NCBI GenBank assembly: GCA_026387935.1
Contig: JAPLKU010000002.1
Span: forward strand, 1-40,206
Reading direction: 5' to 3'
From: Gemmatimonadota bacterium
Lineage (GTDB): Bacteria > Gemmatimonadota > Gemmatimonadetes > Gemmatimonadales > Gemmatimonadaceae
Length of the DNA: 40,206 bases
This document shows, piece after piece, positions 1,658 through 40,206 of this stretch. Numbering within the stretch: the first letter of the stretch is position 1; each line of letters starts with the position of its first letter. A program made the position numbers and the translations under genes. The notes under the pieces are model-generated. The model was given only the letters and a program-made list of their open reading frames with translations. It was not told where the DNA came from and ran no database searches.

Positions 1658-2089
1658 ATGTTGTCACCCAGCGATCAAAACAAAAAACGAAATAAGCCGC
1701 CAGTCTCCACCACTCTTGTCGCACGCGCCGTGCGCCGTGCGGGATCAGCAATAGGTATGCTCTTTGCCACCTCATCTTTCTTATCTAATGATGATAAGCA
1801 AAACCTTATCAATCATATGAAGGGGATCAATACAATCTTAGCCGATATATCAAGGCGTTCCGTATCAATCAGCGAAGGGATAGAACCACTGGATGTAGAT
1901 AGTGGCGATGAAAGTGTGAAGCGGTTTATGGCAAATGAAAAAGATACGCTCACGGGAATCGTCACCAGCACACTCAGCTGCGATCGCCGGCAATGCGTCG
2001 TGATGAGTGGAAACCCTACTTCGGAACGAGTCCTAGGCCGAACGCGCGCCCGAGCACGCTTACTGTCGCGAGAGCCCCGACCATCGTGA
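1658..2089 (+). CDS. Unknown small element protein; C-terminus probably replaced at a junction
   Basis: ATG at 1658 follows GGAG at a good distance. The first 60 or so codons are basic, then include a short hydrophobic patch (IGMLFATSSFL). Codons 20-68 (1714-1862) are repeated almost exactly at 4086-4234. Up to about 1970 composition is AT-rich like the rest of the element. From about 1980 the frame runs on through GC-rich DNA that belongs to the 3' end of the acyltransferase gene on the other strand, giving an Arg-rich tail unlikely to be native. I read this as a real element gene whose original 3' end was cut by insertion or recombination. Function unknown. Confidence 0.45.
   Translation: MLSPSDQNKKRNKPPVSTTLVARAVRRAGSAIGMLFATSSFLSNDDKQNLINHMKGINTILADISRRSVSISEGIEPLDVDSGDESVKRFMANEKDTLTGIVTSTLSCDRRQCVVMSGNPTSERVLGRTRARARLLSREPRPS
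1714..1862 (+). repeat. 149-bp direct repeat, copy 1
   Basis: Matches 4086-4234 in the same orientation with three substitutions by eye (146 of 149). It is coding sequence of the small unknown gene starting at 1658. The two copies bracket the acyltransferase gene, 2372 bases apart start to start. Confidence 0.95.
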
Positions 2090-4013
2090 GATGATTGTCG
2101 TCCCAATAGTACGCTTCTTCACCTGTCCCAGCCCTACACGCGCCGTTTTTTATGCAAAACGCTTCGCCGAGGTCAGTGACGGTAGCGCTGGACGCGGAGC
2201 TGGCCGTCTGCAGTACTGAGCGAACAAACGATTCGTGCTCACGATTCATCACATCAGACACGGACAGTCGGCGAATCTCACTTTCCTTGTCAGTGCGAAA
2301 CGAAAGATGGTAGTAGACATTGCTGATATCGTACCTTTGCAGCGGCGTATGGCCGACAAAATGCAGTCGTACGCCAATACTGTCGTACGTCGCGACTGTG
2401 ATAGCGACTCCAGCCGCGAACGCTGCGCGACTCCCCTCGACGGTTCGCGGCCCGTCGTTAGTCTGTGAGAGGTATTCGGGGAGCCTGCCAGAGTATCCAT
2501 AATCCGTGTACACGGACCAGTTTCCAACGAGAAAGACGTCATGAATACGGAGCGACTTCACAATGCCTACGACCGTCCGATTATTCGCGGGACAGCTAGC
2601 GCTGTTGTTCCGCAGGTCGAACATGTTGGTCGAAATCCCAAGTAGCGGCACGCACGCTGGTTGTGTGTAGAATACTCCTTGGAGCCCTAGGCGTTGAGCA
2701 ACTGATTCGAACGCGGGAAGCATCATGTGGGCGTGACTATCGCCCCACACGAGAAATGACGGTGCGGCGGTTGAACTTCGGTTGACCAAGCAGCGTGCCG
2801 TCCGCTGCGCGCAGCGAGTCTCGTACTGAAGCGATCGGATTGTGCGCTCAAGGTACTTCGAACGCCCTTGAAACTCACCGTCGATAAGCGGCATGCAGGC
2901 CGCGGCAATCAAAACAGCGATGGCTGCCATTGCCGCGACGAGCGCCTTCTTACTGGGCACCTCGTCCGCAATACGCTTCGCAATCGTGACCTTCCGTCGG
3001 AACGGCTGCTCGACGTAACGCCAACTGACGTAAGACAGGAAAACGGTTGCAGCGCACAAGGCGGCGTAGTTCAGCCCCGAAAGTCCGTCCAAGCTCTGTG
3101 TAGTCCGAGCCAAGGCGAAGAGCGGCTGGTGCCACAGATATGCGGAGTACGAAATCAGTCCGAGGCCGACTAACGGCGACAGGGAAAGCAATCGTGCCAC
3201 AAGAGTCTTGGGACTCGCAAAACCGATCACGAGCGCGGCACCGAGCGTTGGGACCAGAGCGTACAAACTTGGAAATGGAGTCTTGGTGTCGTACACGAAA
3301 CAAGCGACAGCGATCAGGCACAGCCCGAGCAGCGAGGCGGTGTTGTTGGCAACCGATCTCCAGCGCCTTGGCACAACGGTCCGGAAGTCTGAAAAGGCGA
3401 GCAGGGCGCCTATGAGCGACTCCCAGAAACGTGCAGGCGAAATATAGAAGGCGGCATCAGGGCTTTCGGCTACCAACCAAACCGCAAAACCGAAGGAAAG
3501 AACAGCCGCGACGCTTACAACCGTGAATGTCGCCTGACGACCCAGCCGTAGGCCCGTGGCGATGAGTAGCGGGAACAACAGATAGAACTGTTCCTCGACC
3601 CCGAGACTCCATGTATGAATGAGCGGCATTGCATCCGCCGACGGGGCAAAGTATCCGCTCGCCTTCCAAAAATAGAAGTTAGAGGAGAATCCGAGAACGG
3701 AGAGGACGCTCTCGGCGAAGTCCCGCATCGACCACGGCGGCAGGATGAACCAGACGGCCGCCGTGGTCGCCATTAGCACAACAAGCAACGCCGGCAGTAT
3801 CCGACGCGCTCGGCGCTCATAGAAACCTCGGATGGTGAAGCGCCCCTTGGCTTGCTGATCCAAAATCACCGACGTAATCAAGAATCCGCTGATCACAAAG
3901 AACACATCGACGCCAACGAAGCCGCCCTTGAGCGCCGAGACGTGGGCATGGTAGAGGATCACCGCGGTAACTGCGATCGCCCTTAGTCCGTCGATTTCTT
4001 TTCTGTATTCCAC
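2016..4013 (-). CDS. OafA-type O-acyltransferase (AT3-SGNH), lipopolysaccharide or exopolysaccharide modification
   Basis: 665 residues. The N-terminal half is an acyltransferase-3 membrane domain: EIDGLRAIAV at the start with its Arg, VDVFFVISGFLIT near residue 36, RRARRILPAL, HTWSLGVEEQFY near 132, and about ten hydrophobic helices to residue 380. The C-terminal half is a periplasmic SGNH domain with GDSHAHM and a terminal DDNHLT (Asp-His pair). This architecture transfers acetyl groups across the inner membrane to polysaccharide. GTG start at 4013 without a clear Shine-Dalgarno. The gene stands alone on its strand between two copies of a direct repeat, with GC content between that of the AT-rich flanks and the chromosome. 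It is probably cargo of the element, able to change the host surface. The acceptor sugar is unknown. Confidence 0.9.
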   Translation of the reverse strand: MEYRKEIDGLRAIAVTAVILYHAHVSALKGGFVGVDVFFVISGFLITSVILDQQAKGRFTIRGFYERRARRILPALLVVLMATTAAVWFILPPWSMRDFAESVLSVLGFSSNFYFWKASGYFAPSADAMPLIHTWSLGVEEQFYLLFPLLIATGLRLGRQATFTVVSVAAVLSFGFAVWLVAESPDAAFYISPARFWESLIGALLAFSDFRTVVPRRWRSVANNTASLLGLCLIAVACFVYDTKTPFPSLYALVPTLGAALVIGFASPKTLVARLLSLSPLVGLGLISYSAYLWHQPLFALARTTQSLDGLSGLNYAALCAATVFLSYVSWRYVEQPFRRKVTIAKRIADEVPSKKALVAAMAAIAVLIAAACMPLIDGEFQGRSKYLERTIRSLQYETRCAQRTARCLVNRSSTAAPSFLVWGDSHAHMMLPAFESVAQRLGLQGVFYTQPACVPLLGISTNMFDLRNNSASCPANNRTVVGIVKSLRIHDVFLVGNWSVYTDYGYSGRLPEYLSQTNDGPRTVEGSRAAFAAGVAITVATYDSIGVRLHFVGHTPLQRYDISNVYYHLSFRTDKESEIRRLSVSDVMNREHESFVRSVLQTASSASSATVTDLGEAFCIKNGACRAGTGEEAYYWDDNHLTMVGALATVSVLGRAFGLGLVPK

Positions 4014-4085
4014 GGGTCACTCGGCTGGAGGTTTCACAACAAGCCATGAAAAACAGAAAGCGAAACAGAAACCCGTAGAGATTAT

Positions 4086-4234
4086 TCTTGTCGCACGCGC
4101 CGTGCGCCGTGCGGGATCAGCAATAGGTATGCTCGTTGCCACCTCATCTTTCTTATCTAATGATGATAAGCAAAACCTTATCAATCATATCAAGGGGATC
4201 AATACAATCTTAGCCGATATATCAAAGCGTTCCG
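4086..4234 (+). repeat. 149-bp direct repeat, copy 2 (fragment of the 1658 gene)
   Basis: Near-identical to 1714-1862. Its frame is open upstream for at least ten codons that look like a diverged version of the copy-1 N-terminus (basic, Lys/Gln-rich), but no start codon is found in frame before the acyltransferase start. Downstream the frame stops within 10 codons. It is therefore a gene fragment, not an intact second gene. Confidence 0.95.
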
Positions 4235-4360
4235 CTAGAAAAAGCGTCACGATTTGCTCGTGATGTGGAGAAGATATTTGGACTGAAGGTTGCGAGGAAC
4301 AAAGGCGGTTGTTGGAGCTGTTTTGCCGTCAAAAAATCATCTCGCGTCGACAACTTTTGA
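4214..4360 (+). pseudogene. Possible 3' remnant of another element gene
   Basis: One frame after repeat copy 2 runs without stop to TGA at 4358-4360 and encodes a peptide that looks like real protein (for example LEKASRFARDVEKIFGL, then a CWSC pair). It is in a different frame from the repeat's own ORF and has no start codon, so it looks like the tail of a gene joined at 4234. The family is not recognised. It could also be chance. Confidence 0.3.
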
Positions 4361-4411: not shown

Positions 4412-4439
4412 ATTCCACATAACTTATCCCATAACCATT
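4412..4439 (-). other. Candidate dif-like XerC/XerD recombination site
   Basis: Read on the minus strand, 4422-4412 is TTATGTGGAAT, which agrees at 9 of 11 positions with the common XerD arm TTATGTTAAAT. A 6-base spacer (4428-4423) and a poorly matching 11-base XerC arm (4439-4429) follow. Elements that exploit XerCD often have one degenerate arm. The site lies where AT-rich element DNA gives way to chromosome, as expected for an attachment site. The match is suggestive only. Confidence 0.35.
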
Positions 4440-4560
4440 GTTTCCATAATCGTGTTTTAGCAGTAGAATATTTTCAGGTAGATACACTGCGGTGCCATAG
4501 AGGGAGAAAAGTAACGCACGGCGCGGCCGACCTCCGCTGCATCGGACGCGGTCGGCGGGC

Positions 4561-4571: not shown

Positions 4572-5285
4572 ATGGAGTTTTCGAGTCTCGTGGAGCGCCT
4601 GAGCGGGAGCCCGATCACGGCGCTTCCGCTGCTCTTTCTGGCCGGGGTGTTCACCAGCCTGAATCCGTGCATCTACCCGATGATCCCGATCACGGCCGCA
4701 ATCGTCGGAGGCACTTCGGTGGGCGGAACAGTTTCGCGCGCGCGGACGGTTCTGCTGACGCTCACCTACGCCGTCGGACTCGCGCTGGTCTATTCAATCC
4801 TCGGCCTCGTGGCCGGCATGAGCGGCAGCGTGTTCGGGGCGGTGAACAGCAATCCGTGGGTCTATTTCGTGATGGCGCAGGTGCTGATGCTCGCGGCGCT
4901 GGCCATGCTCGATGTGATTCCGATTACCGTACCCACCTTCATCATGCAGCGGGCCGCAAACGCAGGAGAAGGGGGCAAGTTTTCCGGCGCCTTCGTGATG
5001 GGCGCAATGTCCGGGCTGGTCGCCGCGCCCTGCGGAGCGCCGGTCATGGCCGCCGTGCTCACCTGGGTGACGACCACGCAGTCAGCCATGCTGGGCTTCG
5101 CCTACCTATTTTCCTTTTCGCTGGGGATGTGCACTTTCCTGATCGTGGCGGGGCTCTCCACCGGCCTCCTGGCACGGCTCCCGAAGGCGGGGGTATGGAT
5201 GGTGTGGGTGAAGCGCGCGTTTGCGATCCTGATGATTGGCGCTGCCGAGTACTACCTGATTGAGGCGGGCAAGCTGTGGCTCTGA
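4572..5285 (+). CDS. CcdA/DsbD-family transmembrane electron carrier
   Basis: 237 residues with six hydrophobic segments. It matches the central membrane domain of DsbD and the CcdA family, which passes electrons from cytoplasmic thioredoxin to extracytoplasmic thiol proteins. The two redox cysteines are in the expected settings: LNPCIYPM (Cys33) in the first helix and AAPCGAP (Cys154) in the fourth. It lacks the periplasmic alpha and gamma domains of full DsbD. The next gene, a periplasmic TlpA-like thioredoxin overlapping it by 10 bases, is the natural partner. Likely roles are cytochrome c maturation or disulfide reduction. Start at ATG 4572, just behind a perfect -10 box. Confidence 0.9.
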   Translation: MEFSSLVERLSGSPITALPLLFLAGVFTSLNPCIYPMIPITAAIVGGTSVGGTVSRARTVLLTLTYAVGLALVYSILGLVAGMSGSVFGAVNSNPWVYFVMAQVLMLAALAMLDVIPITVPTFIMQRAANAGEGGKFSGAFVMGAMSGLVAAPCGAPVMAAVLTWVTTTQSAMLGFAYLFSFSLGMCTFLIVAGLSTGLLARLPKAGVWMVWVKRAFAILMIGAAEYYLIEAGKLWL

Positions 5286-10755: not shown

Positions 10756-11927
10756 GCGCGCCACTCCCCTTCACCGATTCCGACCGCGCGCTGCTCACCG
10801 CGCTGCGGCGTGATCTGCATGCCAATCCTGAACTTTCATGGAAGGAGACGGCCACGCAGGCGCGCCTCGAGCGAGCCCTGCGCGATGTCGGAGTCACCAA
10901 CGTGCAACGCGTGGTCGGCACCGGTCTTGTCGCTCGCATCCCTGGACGGAGCATCGGCGCGCCCGCCGTCGCGGTTCGCGGCGACATCGACGCGCTCCCC
11001 ATCACAGAAGCGACCGGCCTCCCGTACGCGTCGAAAAGCGATGGCGTGATGCACGCCTGCGGACACGACGTGCATGCGTCATGGGCGGTCGGCGCAGCTC
11101 TCTTGCTGGCGCGTTCCCCAGCCGACGGCGAGGTGCGCATCGTACTGCAGCCGGCCGAAGAGCTTGGCGAGGGCGCGAAGGCCATCCTCGAGTCAGGCGC
11201 GTTGGATGGCGTCCGCGCGATTTTTGGCGGCCATGTAGACCGCCGCTTCGCCGTGGGCGAGGTCGTCGCGCAAGCGGGGCCTCTCGCGGCATCAACCGAC
11301 AGCTTTACCATCACGCTCAAAGGCCGCGGCGCACACGGCGCCCGCCCGCATCATTCGATCGATCCGATCGTCGGAGCGGCCGCGTTAATCATGGAGGTGC
11401 AGACCATCGTCTCGCGCCGTCTGGATCCCGCGCTACCTGGCGTGATTACGGTGGCCTCCGTGCACGGCGGACGCGCCGCGAATGTGATTCCGGAGCTGGT
11501 TGAGCTCAGTGGAACGATTCGGGCCACAACATTGGCGACGCGCAACCTGCTCGTGAGCGAACTGGAGCGCATTGCGCAGGCCGTCGCGGCCACCCATCAA
11601 CTGACCGCCGTCGTTGAAATCCTTGGCGGCACACCACCACTGGAAAACACCGCCGATGCGGCCGGTTGGGCAGCGAGCGCGGTGCGTGAAGTTTTTGGTG
11701 ACAGCGGCCTTGTCCCGCTCGGCACGACCAACATGGGGGGAGAAGATTTCGCCTACTACCTCACACGCATGAGCGGCTGCTTCCTGCGCATCGGAGCCAG
11801 GGAACCCGGTGGAGAGCAGCGCGACGTTCACACGCCAACGTTCGCGCCATCGGAGGAAGCACTCTTTGCCGGCGCTGCGGTCCTCGCCACCTGCGCGCGC
11901 GTCGCGTCACGACAGCTCGCTGGCTAA
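10752..11927 (+). CDS. M20-family amidohydrolase (N-acyl-L-amino acid deacylase)
   Basis: 391 residues. Metal and catalytic motifs of the M20D amidohydrolases: RGDIDALP (residues 76-83), HACGHDVHAS (Cys103, His105, His108), LQPAEELGEGA with Glu136-Glu137, a His in FGGHVD, and a C-terminal MGGEDFAYY. A lid domain lies between. The family removes acyl groups from N-acyl-L-amino acids, hippurate, indole-acetyl amino acids or N-acetyldiaminopimelate. Coupled to the racemase by ATGA overlap, it would perform the last, L-specific deacylation step. Cytoplasmic; no signal peptide. Confidence 0.9.
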   Translation: MSAPLPFTDSDRALLTALRRDLHANPELSWKETATQARLERALRDVGVTNVQRVVGTGLVARIPGRSIGAPAVAVRGDIDALPITEATGLPYASKSDGVMHACGHDVHASWAVGAALLLARSPADGEVRIVLQPAEELGEGAKAILESGALDGVRAIFGGHVDRRFAVGEVVAQAGPLAASTDSFTITLKGRGAHGARPHHSIDPIVGAAALIMEVQTIVSRRLDPALPGVITVASVHGGRAANVIPELVELSGTIRATTLATRNLLVSELERIAQAVAATHQLTAVVEILGGTPPLENTADAAGWAASAVREVFGDSGLVPLGTTNMGGEDFAYYLTRMSGCFLRIGAREPGGEQRDVHTPTFAPSEEALFAGAAVLATCARVASRQLAG

Positions 11928-39760: not shown

Positions 39761-39784
39761 AAAACACACCCTCGGAAGTTGTTG

Positions 39785-39813
39785 ACATTACAATCGTTAC
39801 AGCTATTGTTCAA
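39785..39813 (-). promoter_or_regulatory. Sigma-70-type promoter of the 39760 gene
   Basis: On the minus strand TTGAAC (39813-39808), a 17-base spacer and TAATGT (39790-39785). The start point would be near 39778, leaving a short leader with GAGG before ATG 39760. Confidence 0.6.
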
Positions 39814-39871
39814 AGAGACCTTCGTCAATTACATAGTAATTTAGCGAACCGAATTCGTAACCAAGACCCAA

Positions 39872-40206
39872 ATGACGACCAAGTCAAACAAAAATCTCAA
39901 GGGATTCTACAGGGTAGCGAATCAGGGAAGCTATGTGGTACAGATTCAAACACGATTCGCTTCAGTGAAACGACTTCAAATTTCATCAAGCGTGTACCCC
40001 GAAACACCAAATGCAGAAGACACGCTCAGAAAAATGAAGTTGATGTTGAAGGAAATGAACAGGAACGGAGATGTTGAAACACTGATGAAACTCAAAGAAC
40101 GAAAGATTCGTTTGCGCGACTTATTCAACGCTTACTTAAGTGGACGCGAAAAAACACTTCATGGTAACGAACACACAACAATCTATAGTGCGCTTCTTGG
40201 TCTTTC
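39872..40206 (+). CDS. N-terminal part of a probable tyrosine recombinase, cut by window end
   Basis: ATG 39872 opens a frame of 111 codons without stop to the window edge. The sequence is AT-rich and Lys-rich, unlike the chromosome. It begins with an Arm-type beta region (LKGFYRVANQGSYVVQI) and continues with a helical SAM-like region (KIRLRDLFNAYLSGRE), as phage and island integrases do before their catalytic domain. Catalytic Arg/His/Tyr lie outside, so the family is inferred from layout only. Confidence 0.5.
   Translation, partial: MTTKSNKNLKGFYRVANQGSYVVQIQTRFASVKRLQISSSVYPETPNAEDTLRKMKLMLKEMNRNGDVETLMKLKERKIRLRDLFNAYLSGREKTLHGNEHTTIYSALLGL

Follow-up and report, generated by a model that had tools for sequence, protein, structure and literature searches.

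We find that an intact O-acyltransferase gene of the OafA type is carried as cargo, and not as part of the core, by a small, chromosomally integrated mobile element belonging to a little-described family of cargo-swapping elements, and that the gene lies between two partial, nearly identical copies of a small element gene. This bracketed arrangement is probably a scar that recombination between related elements left behind. The window, by which we mean the whole stretch of 40,206 nucleotides that was analysed, is the entire contig C19 of a MAG of 28 contigs from a freshwater Gemmatimonadota bacterium. Gemmatimonadota are common in freshwater and soil, and to our knowledge few mobile elements have been described in them. 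The element family was not described in the literature that we searched, a partial coverage that does not in itself prove novelty.

The mobility of the surrounding DNA, which an earlier note on this stretch had proposed from its letters alone, is borne out by both ends of the insertion. Synteny comparison shows that in relatives of the same genus an ABC-F ATPase gene precedes the dsbD/ccdA gene. A dsbD/ccdA-like gene is present in the window at 4572, and the ABC-F gene of the same genome is found not upstream of it but on contig C8. On that contig, foreign DNA starts immediately past the ABC-F start codon, its first gene encoding a tyrosine recombinase of 399 aa. The 12-mer TGCGGTGCCATA, which matches the start of the ABC-F coding sequence, is located at the left end of the element (C8 2206-2217) and recurs identically as the attR core at its right end, in the window at 4488-4499 (forward strand), where it occurs once. 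Tandem repeats of the CATAAC type close to that end (4412-4452, forward strand), which we propose as integrase arm sites, resemble repeats beside the integrase on C8 and at an element in another genus (G102), whose 70%-identical integrase sits at exactly the same ABC-F site. The integrase (P0007) matches no Pfam family; its catalytic residues R246, K270, R310/R313, H336 and Y345 form the set R-K-(H/R)xxR-H-Y and are invariant across eight aligned relatives. Taken together, the ABC-F gene on C8, the shared core and the same-site integrase of G102 argue that the insertion is real: the right half of an integrated element makes up the AT-rich left part of the window, and its left half would lie on C8. 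The middle of the element is absent from the assembly, so that the ends on C8 and C19 might come from two tandem elements; we infer that they are the halves of one. Contigs C3, C7, C26 and C28 of G000 (L029, L033, L058 and L060) had a GC of 0 throughout in our composition check, which fits masking as N, and part of the missing middle could thus lie there.

The visible part of the element encodes few recognisable functions. P0001 is represented by its C-terminal 145 aa, cut by the contig end (1-440, forward strand; open frame 3-440, GC3 0.35); it has no match in Pfam and no significant one in PHROG. P0002 (861-1397, forward strand, 178 aa) resembles replication initiators, as suggested by a match to PHROG 942 (replication initiation, E 2.8e-6) over 35 aa and by a weak tblastn match to microvirus VP4/initiators (best E 0.06). 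It lacks the canonical HUH motif, the position reading HIT, and hhalign detected no homology to the Rep proteins of related elements. A low-confidence model of P0002 orders its elements as strand-helix-strand-strand-helix-strand-helix; the structure models of P0001 (AF2) and P0002 are too poor for use (pLDDT 40). The next gene, P0003 (1398-1580, forward strand, 60 aa), encodes a helix-turn-helix protein of the excisionase/MerR kind (Pfam HTH_17, 1.1e-7; PHROG excisionase, 5.6e-6). At the opposite end of the window, positions 39775-40206 (forward strand) hold the left end of a third related element, element C, together with an integrase N-terminus that is 39% identical over 87 aa to P0007. Element C lies at the 5' end of a gene, its core is near TATTCTTTCATA, and its DNA is 91% identical to that of the element in G008, a different species.

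The acyltransferase gene (2016-4013, reverse strand) spans 665 codons and encodes fused AT3 and SGNH domains, both scoring above the curated Pfam cut-offs (SGNH, 1.5e-37; Acyl_transf_3, 5.1e-31), with PHROG 6705, O-antigen acetylase, as its best family (3.9e-143). In Salmonella OafA, the motifs R-X10-H, RXXR and GG-F-XGV-D, the SGNH serine and DxxH are essential (PMC7448272), and all are matched here by R11-X10-H22, GGFVGVD at 30-36, R67xxR70, GDSH at 424-427 and DDNH at 638-641. The two domains and the essential residues are thus common to this protein and the known OafA-type enzymes (Salmonella OafA/OafB, PHROG 6705 and the acetylase of Pseudomonas phage D3), whereas its identity to phage proteins is 33-48% over partial length and no virion genes are recognised in the visible part of its carrier. 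According to two reports (PMC7448272; PMC9558356), OafA-type enzymes O-acylate surface carbohydrates; the enzyme encoded in the window may acylate a surface glycan and alter surface recognition or phage adsorption. Its composition sets the gene apart, as had been claimed: GC is about 57-58% and GC3 0.66, against 40-45% and 0.35-0.49 in element genes, the GC3 of host genes being 0.69-0.83. Identity to most Gemmatimonadota relatives is 32-39%, and we found no recent donor within the phylum, the best full-length match being 39%. An 11-bp repeat, CTGCGATCGCC, close to both ends of the gene is attributable to chance.

Is the carrier a phage? The earlier note had entertained a phage-borne O-acetyltransferase, and this part of it finds no support: capsid, terminase and tail genes were recognised neither in the visible part of the element, whose middle is missing, nor in its complete relatives G015 and G003, and it is the lack of recognised capsid genes in these complete members of about 4 kb that leaves the idea unsupported. 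A phage origin was considered and set aside, the microvirus similarity of P0002 in tblastn and PHROG searches being marginal. The phage collection yielded no DNA match, and the viral contigs contained no relatives of P0001, P0002, P0004 or the integrase family. Serotype-converting prophages likewise mobilise an acyltransferase gene that could change the surface, but the complete relatives of the window element differ from them in having no recognised virion genes.

The direct repeat itself is as had been noted. Copy 1 (1714-1862) and copy 2 (4086-4234), both on the forward strand, agree at 146 of 149 positions (blastn E about 2e-69) and bracket the oppositely oriented acyltransferase gene. Their longest exact run is 55 nt, and the three mismatches (at 1763, 1819 and 1854) all alter amino acids conservatively (F/V, M/I and R/K). 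Copy 1 keeps the start of its gene, which is delimited by its open reading frame and a GC step (1658-2089, forward strand) and whose 3' end enters the cargo, element composition persisting to about 1960. Copy 2 is a fragment with an abrupt 3' end: it has no in-frame start, and its frame is broken at the 4234/4235 join, where the tail of another element ORF, a 42-aa open frame out of frame with copy 2 (4232-4357, forward strand), takes over; this tail has no relative among the loci compared. Upstream of copy 2, positions 4037-4085 (forward strand) are identical to 1665-1713 in register at 26 of 49 positions, which exceeds the null 99th percentile of 19, and with the repeat included the copies are 75% identical at the protein level over 67 aa. 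Downstream of the tract the copies are unrelated (23/100 identical). Identity thus steps from 53% on one flank to 98% inside the tract and to none on the other flank. We reject a target-site duplication of 149 bp, because the homology persists upstream at a lower level; the diverged upstream homology and the abrupt downstream stop together also argue against a simple tandem duplication. We read the pattern, as it appears in the sequence, as two related and diverged gene versions that share a recombined or conserved tract. Within 179 family genomes the repeat-bearing gene has matches at chance level alone, and the collections searched contained neither a one-copy form of the repeat nor another element with the P0001, P0002 or P0004 genes.

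The integrase, on the other hand, has relatives in 16 of the same 179 genomes, and these reveal what other members of the family carry. The element of G015, about 4 kb long and inserted at the 5' end of a gene, consists of an integrase gene, a 61-aa gene, an HTH gene, a Rep-like gene and a serine resolvase gene between 22-bp terminal repeats (95%). That of G003 (about 3.8 kb) comprises an integrase gene and two cargo genes, for a TonB_C/zinc-ribbon protein and a DUF805 protein, and nothing else; this cargo is flanked on both sides by a 51-bp hairpin segment, 92% identical. Other cargo includes an FG-GAP/Big_2 surface protein in G008, a guanylate-kinase-like protein in G029, and an HNH endonuclease with a C5 DNA methyltransferase in G006 (L113 7284-9608), probably a restriction-modification pair. 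In G008, an HTH gene fragment precedes the cargo and a diverged, intact HTH gene follows it; we had considered a DNA-level repeat there and discarded it, these flanks representing a duplication at the gene level alone. Relatives thus carry other cargo, sometimes between partial duplicates of element sequence; exchange of cassettes at one and the same site was not seen. The elements are also mosaic. Parts of them reach 91-98% identity between species that agree at about 67-77% in their host DNA. The integrase region of the G008 element recurs in G006 (97.8%) and in element C of the window (91%), and the Rep/resolvase region of the same G008 element recurs in element B of the window's genome (93%).

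How might the acyltransferase gene have come to lie between the two copies? The flank pattern of the copies, together with the cargo of G003 and G008 that lies between partial duplicates, points to recombination between related elements as the most likely source of the module, and we favour, with some reserve, the view that such an event stranded the gene, as exchangeable cargo, between homologous copies of one element gene. In the scenario that we envision, the element is inserted at the 5' end of the ABC-F gene by means of its own tyrosine recombinase, and recombination between related elements would have united two related forms of a single small gene. For example, a second element carrying the acyltransferase gene might have inserted by a single crossover at a short shared tract and have subsequently been deleted for the most part, so that the gene would remain between a start-keeping copy and a fragment. 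The order of events and the source element are conjectural. Counting against this account are the lack of a one-copy relative in our searches, the G008 bracket, which is made of homologous genes and not of a DNA repeat, the missing middle of the element, which leaves room for two elements in tandem, and the lack of a close donor for the acyltransferase gene.

Alternatively, the copies may be ordinary tandem paralogues of the small element gene, between which the acyltransferase gene was inserted later by an unrelated illegitimate event, with no recombination between elements. The common orientation of the copies and the conservative nature of their three differences would suit such a history, which we nevertheless regard as unlikely, since a simple duplication would not produce such sharp steps in identity at the two tract borders, and the frame is broken at the 4234 join. 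Even less probable, in our view, is that the repeats are functional recombination sites, either resembling the res sites of resolvases or serving as secondary sites of the integrase, and that the acyltransferase gene moves actively in and out between them as a cassette. Members of the family do possess genes for a tyrosine recombinase and a serine resolvase, the tract has sharp borders, and a repeated hairpin brackets the G003 cargo; yet the tract is coding, its copies differ at three positions and fold only weakly better than shuffled sequences (z -1.9 and -1.5), the G003 hairpin, with T-runs after it, looks like a terminator, and the relatives gave no sign of same-site exchange. A wrong assembly, in which two related metagenome elements were joined at the repeat, is very improbable despite the many contigs in this and related MAGs that end inside such elements and indicate assemblies under stress, because reads of ordinary length separate copies whose longest shared run is so short, synteny backs the chromosomal joins at either side, which have the att core in common, the acyltransferase gene is intact, and the two copies have different flanks.

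Compared with known systems, the element family is reminiscent of small cargo-carrying integrative elements and genomic islands (tycheposons, PICMI and other satellites, IMEs) in its end-placed tyrosine recombinase, short att core, small size and variable cargo. It differs from them by inserting at the 5' ends of protein genes and not at a tRNA gene, by an integrase, P0007, that has no Pfam match, by the presence in several members of a Rep-like gene and a serine resolvase, and by having no known helper. Tycheposons are defined by a tRNA gene at their border (PMC10872708), whereas the border of the window element is the 5' end of the ABC-F gene. Integron cassettes each carry a palindromic attC site; the 149-bp tract in the window folds only weakly better than shuffled sequences, and the hairpin of G003 resembles a terminator.

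A compact integrase family that targets the starts of protein genes and occurs nearly unchanged between species together with defence or surface genes would let surface chemistry and susceptibility to phages change quickly, and the acyltransferase locus offers a concrete scar of cargo gain. One might go further and imagine a standing exchange, in which hairpins and short conserved tracts within small element genes are preferred recombination sites and one-gene modules (acyltransferase, restriction-modification, surface proteins) are swapped at a high rate between Gemmatimonadota species, a bold proposition to which we give little credence at present.

Several further observations concern the family as a whole. 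The minimal element of G003 (L109 1-3970, on G003:C5) sits immediately past the stop codon of the ABC-F gene, and both ends of the ABC-F gene hence serve as insertion sites in the genus. Contigs repeatedly end inside such elements in this and related MAGs (the window, L034, L077, L027, L113, L117 and L118), which suggests several similar copies or population variants beyond the resolution of assembly. The same genome also contains what appear to be the two ends of another element, at the end of C21 (L077 2490-4001) with a tyrosine recombinase and at the start of C1 (L027 1-2000) with a serine resolvase, TAGTAACTTCTTTAGTAA repeats being present near both. Finally, a near-identical hairpin of the AAAGCCCCGATGATGAGTCGGGGCTTT type is found 3' of the integrase gene in many members (L109 244-294 and 2274-2323; L077 3751-3798; L034 828-854; L111 about 11170-11200); it is probably a terminator and possibly a recombination site.
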